A stretch of DNA of 64,000 nt from Sulfurovum sp. (lineage in GTDB: Bacteria; Campylobacterota; Campylobacteria; Campylobacterales; Sulfurovaceae). The notes beneath the pieces were generated by a model. It did no database searches and was not told the origin of the DNA. It saw only the letters and a program-made list of their open reading frames with translations. The stretch covers positions 1 to 64,000 of the forward strand of contig NZ_WGDD01000054.1 of the NCBI RefSeq assembly GCF_015493435.1, written 5' to 3'. The position numbers and the translations under genes are program-made. Below are positions 3,641-18,146 of the stretch, one piece after another (position 1 is the first letter of the stretch; every line of letters starts with the position of its first letter).

Positions 3641-3646
3641 CCCGGC

Positions 3647-4465
3647 TTATTCCCATCCGCCTTTTGGTGTTTGGCTATTGTCCGGTGCGGGAGTAGACTG
3701 GGGTGTTTCTCCCGGAACCTGAAGTTTGAGAACAGAAGGTTGCTGTTCCGGCTGGTATCTGCCGCTTCCCATCGTTTTGAGAGAGTGGATGGTGTCATCT
3801 ATATTTTTATCATTTTTGTGTTTGGCATCATTCACAAGCCGGTACTCTTCTTCAAAATTCAAAGTGTCCCCATAGCCCATCGCATTGTTGCTTTTGTATT
3901 GGGCGATGGAAGATTTTGTTCCTCTCCCCACGGCACCATCTATCTTTCCGTGGTAATAGCCTTCGATCTTAAGCGCGGTCTGAATTCTTTTGCCTTTGGT
4001 TTTCTTATCGTTTCCTCCGGCAATCAGATATCTGTCAAATGTGAACAATGTTCCAAGATAAATCAGTGCATCTTTCTCTTCATTGCTCATTGCAGCACTT
4101 TGGCTGATCTCATAGGCTTTGTTCATCTCCTTGATCGCGGAACGTGTTTCATAGGAATTGACTTCTCCATCGATCGTACCATGGTAGAAACCCAGGCCTG
4201 CAAGGGCTTTTTGTATGCGTTTCTCATCGGTCATTCTCGGGGCAGCATGGTGTTGCTTTTTTCTTTTTGTTGATTTATGGGTACGATGATGCGTTGTTCT
4301 GCGGGTTTCATGCCGGTTGCTGTTGTATACTTCGTTGGTGATCACCGAACCGACAGCACCTCCCACCAGCCCGCCTACGACAGCATCTCCGAAATTTGCA
4401 TAGGAAACAGTACTTGTCAGAAGCAAAGCTGATACAAGAACCGATACACTTTTTATTTTGATCAT
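3647..4465 (-). CDS. Exported protein with glycine zipper and two peptidoglycan-binding-like repeats
   Basis: 272 residues. A Sec signal peptide (cleavage likely after VSYA) is followed by a glycine-zipper stretch GGLVGGAVGSVI, a very basic His/Arg/Lys segment, and two similar modules: RIQKALAGLGFYHGTIDG and RIQTALKIEGYYHGKIDG. These match the pattern of PG_binding_1 domains (IQ-A-L-x-G-Y-x-G-x-ID-G), which bind cell-wall peptides. The tail is rich in Pro and Gln. It probably acts in the periplasm on or near peptidoglycan. It opens a block of uncharacterised envelope genes. The ATG has a GGGAGGAAAAG ribosome binding site. Confidence 0.6.
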   Translation of the reverse strand: MIKIKSVSVLVSALLLTSTVSYANFGDAVVGGLVGGAVGSVITNEVYNSNRHETRRTTHHRTHKSTKRKKQHHAAPRMTDEKRIQKALAGLGFYHGTIDGEVNSYETRSAIKEMNKAYEISQSAAMSNEEKDALIYLGTLFTFDRYLIAGGNDKKTKGKRIQTALKIEGYYHGKIDGAVGRGTKSSIAQYKSNNAMGYGDTLNFEEEYRLVNDAKHKNDKNIDDTIHSLKTMGSGRYQPEQQPSVLKLQVPGETPQSTPAPDNSQTPKGGWE

Positions 4466-4770
4466 ATTCTTTTCCTCCCTGGGAATGAGATAAATTCTGA
4501 GTTATCGACAGTTATTTGAAAACTCTTCTATATCAATTCTAAGATATAAACCTTAAGATTTTGATAAAAATCCCAAAACAGGAAATAGAATGTTTAAAAT
4601 GTTCAAAGTATCCATCCATAATGGTTTAAACAATAGGCAAATGTTTGTCCCCAAATTTTTCGATAGAAAATAGCATTGCAAGGACTGCAGATTTTATAGT
4701 TCGAGAGAGAGGGTCTGATAGATTGATTTTTACACCATTTTAGGGGTATAATAAAAAAAAGGAGGGCAAA
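4466..4770. other. 305-base divergent intergenic region
   Basis: AT-rich spacer between the minus-strand peptidoglycan-binding-like gene and the plus-strand gene at 4771. It holds a good plus-strand promoter at 4723-4752, annotated separately, and ribosome binding sites at both ends. I see no RNA gene, coding frame or strong hairpin in the rest. Confidence 0.6.
4723..4752 (+). promoter_or_regulatory. Sigma-70-type promoter for the envelope gene block
   Basis: TTGATT (4723-4728), an 18-base spacer and a perfect TATAAT (4747-4752). Transcription would start near 4759, leaving a very short leader that contains the GGAGGG ribosome binding site (4761-4766) for the ATG at 4771. This promoter may serve the following four genes too, as the gaps between them are small. 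Confidence 0.65.
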
Positions 4771-5793
4771 ATGGGTTATTTTCCATGGCGTAAAATTTCA
4801 ATATATCTCTTATGGATGATGATCTTCAGTGCTTGGCTTCAGGCATCAGAGATCAAAGTTTCAGAATTTCACACTTCACGTAGTGTAGACAGCAACAAGA
4901 GCAAGGCAGTCGGTGTCGCTACTACCTTCGATACCGGGATCAGACGCATTTACGCCTCTGCAAAGGTGTACAATATTTTTCCCCCGACACAGTTTACTGT
5001 CAAGTGGTATTATTATAATGGACAGCACAAAGAAGTGCTTTACCGGTACAAGACAACCATAAGCGGTTCAAGGTTTATCTATTCGGCGATTGTCATACCC
5101 AAAGACACCTCACTGTCCGAAGGGAAATATTTTGTAGCTATTTCCGCACTGGGACATGTGATAGCCCGTACTTCGTTTACCATAGTGCCATCCAAAACAA
5201 AATCACAGGCCACAAAAGGTGAATGTATCAAGCCTACTTCGGCAGACAATGAGCTGTTGATTAAAGATATGCTTGCACAAGTTCCTTTGCCGAAAGATGT
5301 GCTGTCTGCTATGCGTCTCAGGCGCTTTCACGACAGGCAAAAACGTTTCAGCCTGCTGGCTCCAAGCGGATGGATCAGCAAAAAAGGTCTTGCTCAGGGT
5401 GAATTTCTGCATCTTGCCGATCCCCAAAAAGGAGCCGTAACGGTTTATATGCTATTGGAAATTCCAATAGACAAATCTTTTATTAAAAAACATTCACTCC
5501 AAGAGAATGTTTTGGTAGCGGCTGAGCTAATAAAAAAAGATTTGTTATCCAAAGGCGGCAAAATTGTGCTTGAGCCAAAAGTGTATGCAATGCCTGATTT
5601 AATGGCAGGTCGTATTATGTTTCATCATAGCAAAGGCAGAGTAGATATTTTTGAGTTGCACACACTTATATTTGATGGGAAATATATGTATGATGTCGTT
5701 CTTGTGACAAACAAAGAAGGCTTGGAAGTCAGCAAATTTCTTTCTTTACTTGCCTCTTATTCTTTTTGGACGGTTGAGTCGTGTCCGAAGTAA
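4771..5793 (+). CDS. Exported protein of unknown function with PsbP/Mog1-like C-terminal half
   Basis: 340 residues with an N-terminal hydrophobic signal (LLWMMIFSAWLQA). The first half (about 25-140) is beta-rich and reads like a periplasmic beta-sandwich. The second half (about 190-335) contains FSLLAPSGWISKK, an alternating beta pattern and a helix-rich AAELIKKDLLSKG segment, resembling the PsbP/DUF1795 fold. There is one Cys near the middle and one near the C-terminus (ESCPK). No catalytic motif is seen. It lies 21 bases before the first of three tandem paralogues and may be co-transcribed with them. The fold assignment is tentative. Confidence 0.5.
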   Translation: MGYFPWRKISIYLLWMMIFSAWLQASEIKVSEFHTSRSVDSNKSKAVGVATTFDTGIRRIYASAKVYNIFPPTQFTVKWYYYNGQHKEVLYRYKTTISGSRFIYSAIVIPKDTSLSEGKYFVAISALGHVIARTSFTIVPSKTKSQATKGECIKPTSADNELLIKDMLAQVPLPKDVLSAMRLRRFHDRQKRFSLLAPSGWISKKGLAQGEFLHLADPQKGAVTVYMLLEIPIDKSFIKKHSLQENVLVAAELIKKDLLSKGGKIVLEPKVYAMPDLMAGRIMFHHSKGRVDIFELHTLIFDGKYMYDVVLVTNKEGLEVSKFLSLLASYSFWTVESCPK

Positions 5794-5814
5794 TGAATGA
5801 AAGGAAGAGTTATA

Positions 5815-7674
5815 ATGGGCGATAGAATAAAAATGCTCTTTGTAGTTTTTCTTTTTGTGCCTTTTTTTCTTTGGGCAGAAGAGGTGCAGTTGAATTTGCC
5901 GGAGAGATTTGATGCGAAGATAATGAAAGGGCATTATTATTCTACAAATGGAAATTATCCTATAAAGTATGATAAAGAATTTTATGAACACGATCCACAA
6001 CCCGAGTCCTGTCGTATTATTCATTTTGTCAATGGAAAATTTTATTTGAATTGTAAATATGTCAATAGTTCCCAAAAGGCATTTCCACGAAAAAATGGTG
6101 CTTATGCCAAGGACTATGTAATTCTAAAGTTGGAAGGTACTTATACTAAAGATGGACTAATTAAAGGTTCATTTACTCATTACAGCAATGTATGGGAATA
6201 TAATACGAAATATACTATTCCGAGCACATTTAGCGAATATAAAGATTCTGAAAAGGGAGAGATAGAGGGAGAGATAAAAGGAGATAAAATATTTGTCAAA
6301 CAACACTATACCAAGAAAAAATATTATACAAATTATACAGAATATATAAGTGACACAGGTCTTTATAAAGTTACAGGGAAATGGAAGTTAATACATCCTG
6401 CAATTACGCCAATTAAAGCAACATATGATTTGAATATACTAGCTGAAATTAGTTCTCAAACAAGTACCCAAACAGAGCCCATCCCCAATGAACCCGAACC
6501 AATCCAACCACAAGCTAATACTAATATTTCACCACAAGACGATAAAGTAACCCTCAACACAGACACCCAAGAACAACCGGTCCAACCACAACAACCACAA
6601 AAAGAACAAGACCCCTGCACCCCACCCATAGACGATGCCTGGCAAGAGTACTGCGAAGCCAAAGCCTACAATGCAAAGATAAAAGAGCAAGAAGAAGCAG
6701 ATGCCAAAGCAGCTGAGCAGGATGCCAAAGAAGAAGAGGCGTATCAAAAGAGACTCGCTGCCTGGAATGAAGAGCAGAGGCAGTCAAATATAAAATTTGT
6801 CAAAAGCCGAAAGGCAGAAATAAAAAAAGTAAAAGAGATTTGGGATAAAGAAGATAAAACCTTCAATGACAGCATTGCCAAAGAGCAGGCAAAACGAAAA
6901 GCCAAACAGGCAGAGATAAAAAAGGCTCACGATATCATAGACAGATTCGGTGATGATTATGAAACCCAAAGAGCTGCCCATAAAAAAGTAGAAGCACTCG
7001 CCAAAAGTGCAGATACGCAAAAAGCAAAGAAAATCAAAAATGCCATCAGAAAACAGTTTTACGACTCAAAGCAGATAAAACTGCAAGCAGATGCAGAGTT
7101 CCAGGCAAATAGAGCCAAAGAGTTGGACAAACGTGCAAAAAGATTGGAAACTGTTAGAGATACAGCCGTTACGGCAAATAAAGTATTAGCCACAGTATAC
7201 GGCGGAGCTCTCATAGAAGGAATAGCACAAGTACATGAAAGCGCGACAAACGCCATAGATGCAGCCCAGAAAGATGGCTGGGAAGGTGCATTGGTAAGTG
7301 TTGTAAAAGATGGTGTAAACAGTAAAACCTTTAATATGGGCAGTAACAGTGTTGATATGATATTCCATAGCACTCAACTCCATACCAAAAAAGGAGCCAT
7401 GGTTCCTGAAGGTATGAAAGTCTATGACAAAAACGGTTACCTGGTAAAGCGCATTAAAGCCAATAAAAGATATTTCGATAAGAAAGGAAAGGATATCAGT
7501 TTTTCTGTCAAACGAAAAGTACTGACCACCAAATCCTTTATAGCAAGATCTGAAGATGATTTTAAAAAAGGGGATGTCAATAAAAAGGTAAACACATTCA
7601 TGGATGTATGGGGTACGACTACCGACATTGTCGGCACAGCTGTTGATTTAGTTGGAAAAGCGATCAGGAGATAG
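5815..7674 (+). CDS. Head-variable, stalk-constant exported coiled-coil protein, paralogue 1
   Basis: 619 residues. Signal peptide ending near WA|EEVQLNLPERFD; beta-rich head (about 25-205) with LEGTYTKDGLIKGSF; Pro/Gln/Thr linker; conserved CTPPIDDAWQEYC (a CX11C pair near 268-280); long Lys/Glu/Ala-rich helical stalk (about 285-450) that should form a coiled coil; then a C-terminal domain with VPEGMKVYDKNGYLVKRI and a small hydrophobic end. ATG at 5815 preferred over 5797 because GGAAG is well spaced for it. The two genes downstream share every part but differ most in the head. Probably periplasmic or surface-exposed. I recognise no named family. Confidence 0.7.
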   Translation: MGDRIKMLFVVFLFVPFFLWAEEVQLNLPERFDAKIMKGHYYSTNGNYPIKYDKEFYEHDPQPESCRIIHFVNGKFYLNCKYVNSSQKAFPRKNGAYAKDYVILKLEGTYTKDGLIKGSFTHYSNVWEYNTKYTIPSTFSEYKDSEKGEIEGEIKGDKIFVKQHYTKKKYYTNYTEYISDTGLYKVTGKWKLIHPAITPIKATYDLNILAEISSQTSTQTEPIPNEPEPIQPQANTNISPQDDKVTLNTDTQEQPVQPQQPQKEQDPCTPPIDDAWQEYCEAKAYNAKIKEQEEADAKAAEQDAKEEEAYQKRLAAWNEEQRQSNIKFVKSRKAEIKKVKEIWDKEDKTFNDSIAKEQAKRKAKQAEIKKAHDIIDRFGDDYETQRAAHKKVEALAKSADTQKAKKIKNAIRKQFYDSKQIKLQADAEFQANRAKELDKRAKRLETVRDTAVTANKVLATVYGGALIEGIAQVHESATNAIDAAQKDGWEGALVSVVKDGVNSKTFNMGSNSVDMIFHSTQLHTKKGAMVPEGMKVYDKNGYLVKRIKANKRYFDKKGKDISFSVKRKVLTTKSFIARSEDDFKKGDVNKKVNTFMDVWGTTTDIVGTAVDLVGKAIRR

Positions 7675-7686
7675 TTGGTGTATACT

Positions 7687-9570
7687 ATGAAATCTATAAT
7701 AATTGGTTTTATTTTGTTGAGTGCCGTTCTTTTAGCTGAAGAGGTACAGTTGAATTTGCCGGAGAGGTTTGATGTTAGTATTCCCGTAAAACCATTTCCA
7801 GGAATAGGTTCTATAAAAAAAATTCCTGATATCATTTTGCATGTTAATGGTGATCATTTTAGACTTTATCAACCAAGACATAAATATATACATGATGATG
7901 CTCCAACAGGTACAGTTGAGGGTAATATTATTTATACTCTAGATCGCTATATATCCTTAGAGGGAAGTGGAAGTTTTCATAATGGGGTATTTGAAGGATT
8001 TGCCATTCGAAAAAATCTTGGGTATATGAGTGCCACAGGAATTGCTACTTGTCCTCAAACATTAATAGATAAAGAGGTTGTCAAATTTAAAATTACTGGC
8101 AAAAGTAATTATAGTGGGCAAGCCAAGATAAAACTAATTTCAATAAAATATCTTGAATGCTTAACAAATAAAGAAGGTGGATGGAACAGAGACAAGAAGA
8201 AAGTTTGGTTTGGTCCACTTGTTCCATGCTATGGTATGGATCCAACTCCTAATTATACTTTACTCTTTTCATTTCAACTGCCTATAAACCAATCCCAATC
8301 CTCTCAAACCTTCATCCCAGACCCTCAAGCAGAACCAGAACCAATCCAAAAGCAGCCAGTCATCATCCCAAAAACAGATCTCACAGCCGAAGCAGGCGTT
8401 TCACCAGAAAACCAAATAGAAGAACCCACACTAACAAAACAACAAAACCCCTGCACCCCACCCATAGACGATGCTTGGAAAGAATACTGCGAAGCCAAAG
8501 CCTATAATGCAAAGATAAAACAGCAAGAGGAAGCAGACACCAAAGCAGCCGAGCAGGAAGCCAAAGAGGAAGAAGAGTATCAAAAAAGACTCGATGCCTG
8601 GAACGAAGAAGAGAGACAATCCAATATAGCCTTCATTAAAAGTCAGGAAGCAGAAAGAGAAAAAGCAGATAAGATCTGGCAAGAAGAAGACAAAGCTTTC
8701 AATGAGAGCATCGCAAAAGATCAGGCAGAGCGAAGAGCCAAACAGGCAGAGATAGAAAAGGCACATAAAATCATAGATAGATTCGGTGGTGATTATGCGA
8801 CCCAGAGTGAGGCTCATAAAAAGATAGATTACCTTGCCCAAACCGCCGATGCAAAACAGGCAAAAAGAATTAAAAACGCCGTTAGAAAAAGATTTTATGA
8901 CTCAAGACAGACGAGACTACAGGGAGAAGCAGAGTTTTATAACAATGTAGGCGATGAACTAGGCAAAAGTGCAAAAAGAGCAGAAACCATAAGAGATACA
9001 GCTGTTAATGCGGAAAAAGTGATAGCGATGGTCGCCGTTCCTGAAATTAAAGCTGTAGGTGAACTTGAAGGTATCGAAGGAGAAGCGATCAAGGAAACCG
9101 TTAAGCATGTTGAATTTGTTGCAGGTACGACAGAGAAGGCTATTAACGCTATCGGTGCTTACTCAAAAGATGGTTTAACCGGTGCGGTAGTCAGTGTGGT
9201 AAAAGATACTGCCAATGACAAAACATTCAATTTGGGAGGCGATAGTGTTGATCAGATATATCATAGTGCCCAACTCCATACAAAAAAAGGAGCTTTGGTT
9301 CCCGAAGGTATGAAAGTTTATGACAAAAACGGTTACCTGGTGAAGCGTATCAAAGCCAATGAAAGATATTTCGATAAGAAAGGAAAAAATATTACCTTTT
9401 CAGTAAAAAGAAAAGTACTATCTACCCAACCTTTCATAGCCCAGTCCGAAAAAGATTTTAAAAAAGGTGACGCGAATAAAAAGGTCAATACTGTGTTGAA
9501 TATTTGGAGTACAACTACCGGCATCGTCGGTGGGGCTATTGATTTAGCTGGGAAAGTACTTAGGAAATAG
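7687..9570 (+). CDS. Head-variable, stalk-constant exported coiled-coil protein, paralogue 2
   Basis: 627 residues, starting 12 bases after paralogue 1 stops. Signal peptide ends near LLA|EEVQLNLPERFD, identical to paralogue 1. The head (about 20-205) is strongly diverged, yet keeps LEGSGSFHNGVFEGF at the matching place and has extra Cys residues (ATCPQ, LECL, VPCYG). The linker, CX11C pair (CTPPIDDAWKEYC), stalk and C-terminal VPEGMKVYDKNGYLVKRI domain match paralogue 1 closely, also at DNA level. The segment before the C-terminal domain carries an insertion (GELEGIEGEAIKETV region). The ATG at 7687 is preferred over TTG at 7675, since the signal peptide begins there. Function unknown. Confidence 0.7.
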   Translation: MKSIIIGFILLSAVLLAEEVQLNLPERFDVSIPVKPFPGIGSIKKIPDIILHVNGDHFRLYQPRHKYIHDDAPTGTVEGNIIYTLDRYISLEGSGSFHNGVFEGFAIRKNLGYMSATGIATCPQTLIDKEVVKFKITGKSNYSGQAKIKLISIKYLECLTNKEGGWNRDKKKVWFGPLVPCYGMDPTPNYTLLFSFQLPINQSQSSQTFIPDPQAEPEPIQKQPVIIPKTDLTAEAGVSPENQIEEPTLTKQQNPCTPPIDDAWKEYCEAKAYNAKIKQQEEADTKAAEQEAKEEEEYQKRLDAWNEEERQSNIAFIKSQEAEREKADKIWQEEDKAFNESIAKDQAERRAKQAEIEKAHKIIDRFGGDYATQSEAHKKIDYLAQTADAKQAKRIKNAVRKRFYDSRQTRLQGEAEFYNNVGDELGKSAKRAETIRDTAVNAEKVIAMVAVPEIKAVGELEGIEGEAIKETVKHVEFVAGTTEKAINAIGAYSKDGLTGAVVSVVKDTANDKTFNLGGDSVDQIYHSAQLHTKKGALVPEGMKVYDKNGYLVKRIKANERYFDKKGKNITFSVKRKVLSTQPFIAQSEKDFKKGDANKKVNTVLNIWSTTTGIVGGAIDLAGKVLRK

Positions 9571-9582
9571 TTGGAGTATGTG

Positions 9583-11418
9583 ATGAAGGCTATAATAATT
9601 TGTTTTCTTTTATTGAGCGCTGCGCTTTTGGCCGAAGAGGTGCAGTTGAATTTGCCGAAGAAGTTTGATGTTAAGGTCTCTAAAGAATGGGTTACTAAAA
9701 ATAATAAAAAAATAAACGGTAACAAAATAGAAGAGCACCGTCCAAAAATTTTCCATTTTGATGGAATAAATTTTACATATATAGATCAAAAACATACACA
9801 ATATGGGCAAGGAGACTATATTTGGGGTATGGCTAGTGGTACTTTTAAAAATGGTATATTAAAGGGAAAATATAAGTGGAAATCTATTAGGTACTGCTAT
9901 GAAAATAAAAATCTTATTTGTCTCAAGACCGCCTATACTAGAAAGCTGAATGGTAGAGCAAATAGTGAAGGATTACTGCATATAGTTATCTCTTCCATTA
10001 AAGATCACTCTGTTGACTATCATTACATTAGAAAAAGAGATAAAAATGGACATTTAACTAATGCTTGGGATGATGCTACCCTAAAAACAAATAAATATAA
10101 TGCCAATAGCTATCAATATAAGCAACATTTCCTCCTCCAACTTCCAGTAGGAGAACTTCAATCCTCCCAAACCCCTATCCAAGATATTCCGGAAGAACCC
10201 AAGACAATCCAAGAGCAGTCAGCCGTCACTCCAAAAATAGATCTCACAACTGAAGCAGGTGTTTCGATAGGTAAACAAACAGAAGAGACACCACAACCAA
10301 AAACAAACCCCTGCACCCCACCCATAGACGACGCCTGGAAAGAGTACTGCGAAGCCAAAGCCTACAATGCAAAGATAAAAGAAGAGGAAGAAGCCGATGC
10401 CAAAGCAGCCGAGCAGGAAGCCAAAGAAGAAGAGGCGTATCAAAAGAGACTCGATGCCTGGAACGAAGAAGAGAGACAGTCTAATATCTCGTTCATTAAA
10501 AGCCAGGAAGCTGAAAGGCAAAAGGCAAGAGAGATTTGGGAAAAAGAAGATAAAGCTTCCAATGACAGCATTGCAAAAGATCAGGCAGAGCGAAGAGCCA
10601 AACAGGTAGAAATAGAAAAGGCACATAAGATCATAGATAGATTCGGTGATGACTACGAAACCCAAAGAGCCGCCCATAAAAAAGTAGAAGCACTTGCTAA
10701 AACTGCAGATACGCAAAAAGCAAAAAGAATCAAAAATGCCATAAGAAAGCAGTTTTATGACTCAAAGCAGATAAAACTCCAGGCAGATGCAGAGTATCAG
10801 ACAAGCAAAGCAAAAGAACTCGGCAAGAAAGAGAAATATCTCAATACCGTTAAAGAGACATCCCTTACTGTCAACAAAGTCCTTGCACGAATAGACTCAG
10901 AAATTGACCCGTTGAAAATAGGCAATAAAATAGTCGACCTTCAGGAAAACAGCTACGACGCCATAGACAGTTACTCCAAAGGAGGTCTGAGCAAAGTGGC
11001 TGATGACTTTATAGAAAAGAAAGCCAATGAGCTTAGCAATGACTGGGCAGGTGTTGCTAAAGAGAAAGCAGAAGAGTACAAACAATACCACAGTAAAAAA
11101 GGACTAAAACTCAAACCCGACGAAATCTACTACGATAAAAACGGTAAACAGCTCAAAAAAGTCAATGCCTACCAAAAAGTGTATGACAAAAAAGGAAATG
11201 AAGTCAGCTTCTCCTTTGGTAAAAGAATATTTAAAAAGACATTCAGCAAGCTCAACGATGATTATAATAGTATCCAAGGAACAGCAGAGCATATCAAAAA
11301 TATCAAAGAGGGCGTTATGAGCGGAGATATCAATAAGATTACTAATGAGGCGCTTGATATGACGGAGAAGGAGGATGAAGGAGATGAGAAAAAAGATGGG
11401 GCTAAAAAAATAGATTAG
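9583..11418 (+). CDS. Head-variable, stalk-constant exported coiled-coil protein, paralogue 3
   Basis: 611 residues, again 12 bases after the previous stop, with GGAG before ATG 9583. Signal peptide ends LLA|EEVQLNLPKKFD. The head is divergent but retains ASGTFKNGILKGKY, the counterpart of the G-x-F-x-N-G-x-x-x-G pattern in the other two. Linker, CTPPIDDAWKEYC and stalk are nearly the same as in paralogue 1. The C-terminal domain is homologous but clearly diverged (LKPDEIYYDKNGKQLKKV) and ends in a hydrophilic tail (KEDEGDEKKDG) instead of the hydrophobic end of the other two. It is therefore the most distinct copy. Function unknown. Confidence 0.7.
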   Translation: MKAIIICFLLLSAALLAEEVQLNLPKKFDVKVSKEWVTKNNKKINGNKIEEHRPKIFHFDGINFTYIDQKHTQYGQGDYIWGMASGTFKNGILKGKYKWKSIRYCYENKNLICLKTAYTRKLNGRANSEGLLHIVISSIKDHSVDYHYIRKRDKNGHLTNAWDDATLKTNKYNANSYQYKQHFLLQLPVGELQSSQTPIQDIPEEPKTIQEQSAVTPKIDLTTEAGVSIGKQTEETPQPKTNPCTPPIDDAWKEYCEAKAYNAKIKEEEEADAKAAEQEAKEEEAYQKRLDAWNEEERQSNISFIKSQEAERQKAREIWEKEDKASNDSIAKDQAERRAKQVEIEKAHKIIDRFGDDYETQRAAHKKVEALAKTADTQKAKRIKNAIRKQFYDSKQIKLQADAEYQTSKAKELGKKEKYLNTVKETSLTVNKVLARIDSEIDPLKIGNKIVDLQENSYDAIDSYSKGGLSKVADDFIEKKANELSNDWAGVAKEKAEEYKQYHSKKGLKLKPDEIYYDKNGKQLKKVNAYQKVYDKKGNEVSFSFGKRIFKKTFSKLNDDYNSIQGTAEHIKNIKEGVMSGDINKITNEALDMTEKEDEGDEKKDGAKKID

Positions 11419-11518
11419 GAGGTATACTGGCAAGTGTAAAGATGATATAAAGAGGAGAAAATTTAGGTGATTTTTTGAAAAATCTTAATAAAGATAAATT
11501 TTAAAAAGAGGAAATATC

Positions 11519-12346
11519 ATGTGGAAAAAAATATTGGGAACGGTTGTTGTACTGATAGTCTTGTTCATTGCCGTTATAATGTATGCCACCTCCGGAATGA
11601 CAGATGTGGCCAATACATTTTTCACCCATGCCAAAACAAAACATTATAACGATGCCTACAATATGCTTTCGGAAGATTTTAAAAAATCTGTTTCAGAAGA
11701 ACAATTGAAGAATTTTCTTGAGAAAAATGCTTTAACAGAGTATAAAAGTGCAAGCTGGAATAACCGCTCTTTTGAAGGAAATATGGGAAAACTGGAAGGG
11801 TCGATTGCAACACAAAGCGGCAGTGTGATCCCCTTGACGATAGAATTTGTCAAGAATACCGACGGCCAGTGGCAGATTTATTCTATCTATAAACGTGCCG
11901 GAGGCATAGGAACGGAACAAACAACGGATACCAGCAAGAAAGTCCAACAGGTTCAACCATCTGTTTCCGGGCAGAAAAAGACACTGCCTTCTGACAAGGA
12001 GATCAAAGCACTGGTTCAGGAAAGTGTCATGGTATTTGCTAACAGTGTCAATGATAAAAGTATGAAAAAGCTGTATGAATACAGTGCAGATGTATGGAAA
12101 AAACAGACCAGCATCAAGCAGCTCGATAAAATCTTTGATTCATTTTACAAAGCGGGGCTTGATCTGACCGTACTGAAAGATATCGTACCACAGCTGGATC
12201 AAAAGCCGGAAGTGGGAAAGTATGGAGAGATTACGGTTAAAGGCCATTATCCGACTTCTCCGGCAGTGGTCTATTTTGAAAACAGTTATTTTCCGGAGAA
12301 TGGAAAATGGAAACTGGTGGGTATTGATATTCAAGTCCATCGATAG
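11519..12346 (+). CDS. Membrane-anchored protein with two NTF2/DUF4878-like domains
   Basis: 275 residues. One N-terminal transmembrane anchor (ILGTVVVLIVLFIAVIMYA, residues 5-23) and a periplasmic part with two similar halves. Each half has the layout of a helix pair followed by a curved sheet: AYNMLSEDFKKSVSEEQLKNFL to GQWQIYSIYKR, then LYEYSADVWKKQTSIKQLDKIF to GKWKLVGIDI. This resembles lumazine-binding or NTF2-like DUF4878 domains. A Ser/Gln/Thr linker joins the halves. It has its own GAGGAAA ribosome binding site, follows the paralogue trio by 100 bases and converges on ftsI. Role unknown. Confidence 0.55.
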   Translation: MWKKILGTVVVLIVLFIAVIMYATSGMTDVANTFFTHAKTKHYNDAYNMLSEDFKKSVSEEQLKNFLEKNALTEYKSASWNNRSFEGNMGKLEGSIATQSGSVIPLTIEFVKNTDGQWQIYSIYKRAGGIGTEQTTDTSKKVQQVQPSVSGQKKTLPSDKEIKALVQESVMVFANSVNDKSMKKLYEYSADVWKKQTSIKQLDKIFDSFYKAGLDLTVLKDIVPQLDQKPEVGKYGEITVKGHYPTSPAVVYFENSYFPENGKWKLVGIDIQVHR

Positions 12347-12348
12347 AC

Positions 12349-17255: not shown

Positions 17256-17714
17256 ATGAAAAAAATAACAGCTTTTCTTGCTGTGGGTGCAGCGGTTTTT
17301 GCATTAAGCGGCTGCGGCAGCGGTTATGATAATGGCTATGACGATGGATACAATGACGGGTTTTATGACGGTACGCGGGTACCGGTCGATAATATGACGA
17401 CATTGTTCATACGCGATATTAATGGATTTTCGGCAGGCGGCGTGCATTATACCTGTGTTGATCCGGAGGGCTATGTGACAGATGATTATGTGACGGCACC
17501 CAACGGAGAATTTACTTTTTATCCCGGTGAACGTTGTACTTTCGATCTGTACGGATTTGGGGGTACTCCGGATGATCCTCTGTTCATAGAGGATGATACC
17601 GGATTCGGGAAAGGGGATATTCCATACGCATGTGACGGGGGAGACGGCGGACTGACCTACCCTGACGGCGGTTTTGAATACTTCCCGAATGATATATGCA
17701 CGTTTTATCTTTAA
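17256..17714 (+). CDS. Lipoprotein with internal duplication and Tyr/Gly/Asp repeats
   Basis: 152 residues. Lipobox LSGC makes Cys near residue 20 the lipidation site. It is followed by a GYDNGYDDGYNDGFYDG repeat. The rest consists of two similar halves: FSAGGVHYTC...FTFYPGERCTFDL and FGKGDIPYAC...FEYFPNDICTFYL, each with two Cys that could form a disulfide. Very acidic. Likely anchored to a membrane facing the periplasm or surface. I do not recognise the family; the Asp/Asn/Gly content suggests possible calcium binding, which is inference. Confidence 0.6.
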   Translation: MKKITAFLAVGAAVFALSGCGSGYDNGYDDGYNDGFYDGTRVPVDNMTTLFIRDINGFSAGGVHYTCVDPEGYVTDDYVTAPNGEFTFYPGERCTFDLYGFGGTPDDPLFIEDDTGFGKGDIPYACDGGDGGLTYPDGGFEYFPNDICTFYL

Positions 17715-17738
17715 AAAAATCATAAGTGGAGGAAAAAA

Positions 17739-18146
17739 ATGAAAAAATTGACAAGTCTGATAATGGGTGGAATAGCTGTGATAGCGTTGAACGGCTGCGG
17801 CGGCGGAGGAAGCAGCGGAAACAATCCTCCTCCTGTGACAGTAGAACAGGTTGATATATATGCTTTGCATGAAGGGTATAGGATCCTCGGACATGACAGT
17901 GATGACCGGGATGTCTCTTTTGACTACTGCAGTGACTATACTTACTTTTATTATCGTGGCAACAGCCGTTTTACTGGTACTTTTGACATAAGCGGTGATA
18001 CTGTTACCATTAATATGTGGGATGACCAGGGCGGCAGCTATGTGATAGATACCGGAGACGGGTATCTTCGTGTGGGTGAAGATTATTATATTTATGATGT
18101 CGGTGACGATATCATTGTTGATGAAATTCTTGAAATTGACTGCTGA
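17739..18146 (+). CDS. Small acidic lipoprotein
   Basis: 135 residues with lipobox LNGC (Cys about residue 20) followed by a GGGGSSGNNPPP spacer. The remainder is beta-rich with alternating residues (TGTFDISGDTVTINMWDDQGG) like a small lipocalin-type or META-like barrel fold, and it ends in Cys (EIDC). Two other Cys are seen only in the lipobox and near SFDYC. The GGAGG ribosome binding site lies 7 bases before the ATG. It follows the previous lipoprotein by 24 bases, so both are probably one transcript. Function unknown. Confidence 0.55.
   Translation: MKKLTSLIMGGIAVIALNGCGGGGSSGNNPPPVTVEQVDIYALHEGYRILGHDSDDRDVSFDYCSDYTYFYYRGNSRFTGTFDISGDTVTINMWDDQGGSYVIDTGDGYLRVGEDYYIYDVGDDIIVDEILEIDC

Follow-up and report, generated by a model that had tools for sequence, protein, structure and literature searches.

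What do three adjacent genes of one plan, at positions 5815-11418 of a 64,000-nucleotide stretch of Sulfurovum DNA (hereafter the window), encode, and are their divergent heads the mark of surface proteins under pressure to vary or with different binding targets, as a sequence-only reading of the window had proposed? Alignment of the three products confirmed the coordinates, lengths and shared segments underlying that proposal. Gene 1 (P0001; 5815-7674, + strand) encodes a protein of 619 residues, or of 625 residues from an alternative in-frame start at 5797, gene 2 (P0002; 7687-9570, +) one of 627 residues and gene 3 (P0003; 9583-11418, +) one of 611 residues, the gaps between these genes being 12 bp each. 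From N- to C-terminus, each protein harbors a signal peptide, the motif EEVQLNLP, a β-rich head of about 165-185 residues, a Pro/Gln linker, a CX11C cysteine pair, a helical stalk and, at the C-terminus, a region containing YDKNG. The cysteine pair (C268/C280 in gene 1, C256/C268 in gene 2 and C244/C256 in gene 3), which lies within the sequence CTPPIDDAW-x-EYC, was as invariant as claimed. It is followed by an E/K/A-rich stalk of about 150 residues, pair and stalk together occupying positions 6616-7104, 8452-8940 and 10312-10800 (all on the + strand) in genes 1, 2 and 3, respectively. The reported near-identity of the signal-peptide ends applied in part only: EEVQLNLP follows the signal peptide (A/EEVQLNLP) and is invariant in all three aligned proteins, and the signal peptides of genes 2 and 3 are 76% identical, but that of gene 1 is only about 25% identical to these. 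The signal peptides, together with the Cys pairs that the heads, too, have kept, fit an extracytoplasmic location. No lipobox was found, there being no Cys at position +1 (LLA/EEV, LWA/EEV), nor did the trio proteins display an LPXTG motif, an autotransporter domain, a C-terminal aromatic residue or a second strong transmembrane segment. Surface exposure is plausible, with no recognised anchor in the sequence.

That the proteins belong to no named family held true in searches of Pfam, NCBIfam, PHROG and PADLOC, which returned no full-length profile match above curated cut-off, and in a sequence search of the PDB, which returned no match; no description of proteins of this type was found in the literature. 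A faint TolA match (TIGR02794, E 0.0035) was far below cut-off and compositional. TolA has a long charged helical segment like that of the trio, but it carries an N-terminal membrane anchor and no β head, and its domain III is absent from the trio. Trimeric autotransporter adhesins of the YadA/NadA type similarly combine an N-terminal exported head with a helical stalk and concentrate their variation in the head; in contrast to these adhesins, the trio proteins lack a YadA-like anchor domain (no Pfam match at E<=1), their C-terminal module is another sequence, and PDB entries of the class were not matched. Slam-dependent barrel proteins (HphA, TbpB, fHbp) resemble the trio in that an antiparallel β barrel is predicted for the trio head, but the putative barrel of the trio precedes a stalk and comes with neither a lipobox nor a sequence match.

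Relatives were sought with profiles in 78 genomes of the genus, 175 of the family, 399 of the order and 397 of the phylum, with one genome compared per species. Within the genus, where the architecture was searched for and its copies counted, only the source genome contained it, in three copies, and a profile search of that genome yielded the three trio genes only. The sole relatives elsewhere were two genes, designated Q and Q2, of G512, an 81% complete genome from another genus of the family; scans of genome contigs, viral contigs, phages and plasmids revealed no relatives. Q (L068:4781-6616) is a full-length homologue of the trio, consisting of a signal peptide, VELNLPEKFDV, a head, a Pro/Gln linker, a CX12C pair, a stalk and a YDKDG region. 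Q2 (L075, minus strand) is cut by the contig end. It opens with its own signal peptide and a domain with eight Cys residues, continues with a helical part and then has the C-terminal half of the stalk and a C-terminal region of the type found in genes 1 and 2. Over 155 residues, Q2 is 39% identical to gene 1 (E=3e-23), while its N-terminal 280 residues have no match and its Cys-rich domain shares no detectable similarity with the β heads (best z 2.2). If membership is defined by the C-terminal half of the stalk plus the C-terminal module behind an exported head, the family comprises the three trio proteins and Q at full length, and Q2 in truncated form, and the alignments show stalk and C-terminal module to be its conserved base. 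Since Q2 bears an unrelated head on the common base, at least one exchange or acquisition of a head appears to have taken place, the evidence for which is Q2, a single relative cut short by its contig, from a genome that is 81% complete. The constant base and differing heads of the earlier reading thus find a further instance in a second genome.

An exported protein encoded at L068:6594-7087 of the same genome overlaps the end of Q and is cut by the contig end; it is possibly a second neighbour of the stalk-protein family. Separately, a 283-residue exported protein of genome G470 (L073:1492-2343), the sequence of which begins with ADEVNVNVDEKLEVK after the signal peptide and bears ADEVNVN there, matched the head end of the profile at a borderline E value of 0.002 and could be either a distant stand-alone relative or a chance match. 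Weak matches to PBP1A in G433, a ZnuA-like protein in G082, an Era GTPase in G251, a sequence in G555 and others were dismissed as chance, and a candidate stretch in G547 was discarded as full of stops.

The trio lies in an 8.7-kb insertion (3641-12348) between convergent panC and ftsI, two genes that in six congeners either share 4 bp or are separated by 11 bp. Besides the trio, the insertion holds a gene on the minus strand (3647-4465) for an exported protein that combines a glycine-zipper-like stretch with a pair of peptidoglycan-binding domains (PF01471), P0004 (4771-5793, +) for an exported protein of 340 residues, and P0005 (11519-12346, +) for a membrane-anchored protein with an NTF2-like domain (DUF3887/DUF4864-like, below cut-off). 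Relatives of the peptidoglycan-binding-domain gene occur in about a dozen congeners, mostly at 46-60% identity and at other sites, none of them at the panC-ftsI site in the seven loci read; the gene thus seems to have reached its present place beside panC by relocation. No homologue of P0005, which weakly matched phrog_20642, was found in 40 relatives searched, and none of P0004 in 59. P0004 ends 21 bp before gene 1, and it and the trio, with spacings of 12-21 bp, lie behind one promoter-like site (TTGATT-18-TATAAT; 4723-4752, +) that likely serves them all; the site is a consensus match only, from a scan whose count was not clearly above that of shuffles. P0004 and the trio are thus apparently expressed from one operon. 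In G512, a full-length homologue of P0004 lies directly upstream of Q2 (21% identity, two conserved Cys; BLASTP E=3e-14 over 370 columns), and no such gene lies beside Q. The comparison therefore shows a P0004-type gene to accompany the stalk proteins into a second genus, at one of two loci there, and points to a conserved unit made up of a P0004-type gene and a stalk protein. P0004 drew a faint match of PsbP type in Pfam (E 0.03), and Eag chaperones also adopt this fold. Eag chaperones serve T6SS effectors (PMC7773334).

To what extent the contrast between stalks and heads reflects pressure on the heads was assessed region by region. In an alignment of the trio and Q, trio stalks were 71-83% identical (83% for stalks 1 and 3), and trio heads (5914-6465, 7774-8298 and 9670-10164, all on the + strand) 13-27%. 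Homology was clear between heads 2 and 3 (z 7.6-8), weak between heads 1 and 3 (z 2.4) and not detectable by direct alignment between heads 1 and 2. Consequently, the earlier proposal that the three heads share one ancestor, well founded for heads 2 and 3, rests for the trio as a whole mainly on the shared flanks. Nor is the C-terminal region common to all three in the sense first suggested: those of genes 1 (7105-7671, +) and 2 (8941-9567, +) are 68% identical and, with that of Q2, constitute a type A, whereas that of gene 3 (10801-11415, +), only 26-30% identical to them, is of a type B common to Q. The closest pair switches along the trio, from genes 2 and 3 in the signal peptide and linker to genes 1 and 3 further along the stalk, where their nucleotide identity is about 90%, and genes 1 and 2 in the C-terminal region, and none of 5000 shuffles clustered the informative sites as strongly (runs test). 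Synonymous divergence reached its minimum (dS 0.56-0.89) in the segment comprising CX11C and the stalk, and most comparisons between heads approached saturation. These patterns show the trio to be a mosaic, the stalks of which were homogenised by recombination between tandem copies.

Comparison with Q bears on the age of some of these differences. The N-terminal stalk of gene 3 is far closer to both trio neighbours than to Q, the difference in identity (gene 3 to Q minus gene 3 to neighbour) being -0.33 [-0.43,-0.23] for gene 1 and -0.41 for gene 2. The C-terminal region of gene 3, in contrast, is closer to Q than to gene 1 (+0.15 [0.06,0.23]), with a firm topology of genes 1 and 2 against gene 3 and Q (other topologies, AU p about 5e-6). 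Head 3 is nearer to the Q head (33% identity) than to head 2 (21%), a difference of +0.11 [0.02,0.21], that relative to gene 1 not being significant, and no topology was resolved in the head phylogeny. Identities thus show heads and C-termini to retain differences that appear older than the genus split, as does topology for the C-terminus. In the simplest account of the alignments, that split came after the divergence of the two C-terminal types and, at the least, of heads 2 and 3, and the trio stalks were made alike later by recombination; alternatively, Q-like segments may have been transferred between genera instead of descending within them. Between genera, stalk 3 and the Q stalk are 50% identical, a modest gap to the 33% of the heads. 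Since trio stalks have been homogenised, the strong constant/variable contrast within the trio is partly a product of this homogenisation, and the pressure to vary that had been read into it does not by itself account for it. A diversity-generating retroelement was set aside as a source of the variation, the heads differing over their whole length, with indels.

The interpretation that we favour, by a narrow balance of probability, is that these exported proteins form a modular family, rare and so far undescribed, in which exchangeable heads are mounted on a conserved base and P0004 is a dedicated partner. Each protein would possess a cleavable Sec signal peptide and an exchangeable N-terminal head, usually β-barrel-like and in Q2 an unrelated Cys-rich domain, then a Pro/Gln linker, a Cys pair of disulfide size, a long charged helical stalk and the C-terminal module. 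The heads might bind ligands (protein, glycan, heme or metal) and the stalk would keep them at a distance from the place, in the cell envelope or at the surface, where the C-terminal module would dock, and P0004 may help in folding, export or docking; recombination between tandem copies keeps the trio stalks alike. A more ambitious version, which we put forward tentatively as a possibility, would have the P0004-type partner and the stalk proteins form a display system with exchange of heads that is restricted to this bacterial family and in which varied heads, either Cys-rich or of β-barrel type and then drawn from an AT-rich pool, fit one docking module on a recombination-homogenised base.

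Base composition bears on the origin of the heads. GC3 was 20%, 16% and 21% in heads 1, 2 and 3, lower than in stalks and C-terminal regions (31-41%) and in the core genes nearby (44-56%); upon matching for amino acids, 98 of 512 codons in the heads ended in G or C, compared to 196.5 expected from the other parts of the same genes. Low head GC was nevertheless rejected as proof of recent transfer, the Q head being as AT-rich (GC3 21%) though only 33% identical. The heads may either have come repeatedly from an AT-rich pool or be weakly constrained near mutational equilibrium. The latter would suit an envelope protein that evolves fast and was simply duplicated in tandem, with neither head exchange nor display function; its heads would drift under weak constraint while helical composition and gene conversion would lend the stalks their constant look. 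AT-rich silent sites in the heads of both genera are expected of weak constraint and AT-biased mutation, the head/stalk difference between genera is only moderate, and stalk homogenisation is seen in the trio; yet the Cys-rich head that Q2 carries on this base is unrelated, the heads keep their Cys pairs and a compact predicted fold, and all frames are open, so that we regard simple duplication as rather doubtful.

Returning to the modular family that we favour, the fold of its heads was approached by structure prediction. AF2 modelled the full-length protein poorly (pLDDT 43) and, with moderate confidence, the stalk of gene 3 as a single helix of about 104 residues (pLDDT about 53-75); stalk sequences had a helical periodicity of 3.4-3.7, above shuffles, without a clean heptad pattern. 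The head of gene 3 alone, predicted from three sequences as an all-β meander of antiparallel strands, reached a pLDDT of 74 and a pTM of 0.67, and only this head model was used in fold searches. Foldseek yielded nothing below E 0.2 in the PDB and nothing below 0.05 in BFVD. The best VIA-align row was the soluble barrel of the hemophilin HphA (Z 7.8), followed by OprH (7.2), a minimal transmembrane barrel (7.0), the TbpB barrel (6.7) and PagP (6.3), all within the background stated by the tool. The model thus makes a barrel-like head likely, with moderate confidence in the fold.

Three of these rows, OprH, the minimal transmembrane barrel and PagP, would accord with an OmpA-like plan, whereby the N-terminal β domain is a small outer-membrane barrel with its variability in surface loops, linker and helix traverse the periplasm, and the C-terminal module attaches to peptidoglycan or to the inner membrane. 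OmpA has a Pro-rich linker after its barrel domain, as well as the signal peptide and further C-terminal region seen in the trio, the trio head is predicted to consist of long antiparallel strands, and a helix of ~104 residues would span about 15 nm. However, a soluble barrel tops Z values that are within background, the end of the last strand provides no clear BAM signal, and the Cys-rich head of Q2 is unlikely as a barrel of that type; moreover, Pfam found neither an OmpA transmembrane nor an OmpA C-terminal, peptidoglycan-binding domain in the trio, and OmpA lacks its long helix and CX11C pair. We therefore judge an OmpA-like protein unlikely. Least probable are antagonism proteins of a bacteriocin-like or polymorphic-toxin-like kind, which would use the helix as a spacer in delivering their domains to neighbours, while P0004 or P0005 would confer immunity or act as an accessory: modular exchange at one end, by recombination onto a constant partner region as in polymorphic toxins and Rhs proteins, patchy distribution, orphan neighbours and the PsbP-like match of P0004 would agree with this, but the variable part is N-terminal and the constant part C-terminal, opposite to polymorphic toxins, the same partner accompanies different heads instead of a head-specific immunity gene, a Sec signal peptide is present, and Pfam, PHROG and PADLOC revealed no toxin, immunity or defence family.

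The modular family and its two-gene unit, if correctly delineated, are a new exported protein family and gene pair that go without annotation today, in a host group, the Campylobacterota of sulfidic habitats, whose surface interactions are little studied. Comparison of two genera made it possible to separate variable heads from stalks made constant-looking by gene conversion, two phenomena that are usually lumped, and the same caution applies to many claims of a constant stalk and variable head. Elsewhere in the window, between the murG region and alaS, two adjacent genes (17256-18146) encode small lipoproteins of 152 and 135 residues, each with a lipobox and a Gly/Asp/Tyr-rich N-terminus, which may be another local orphan pair.
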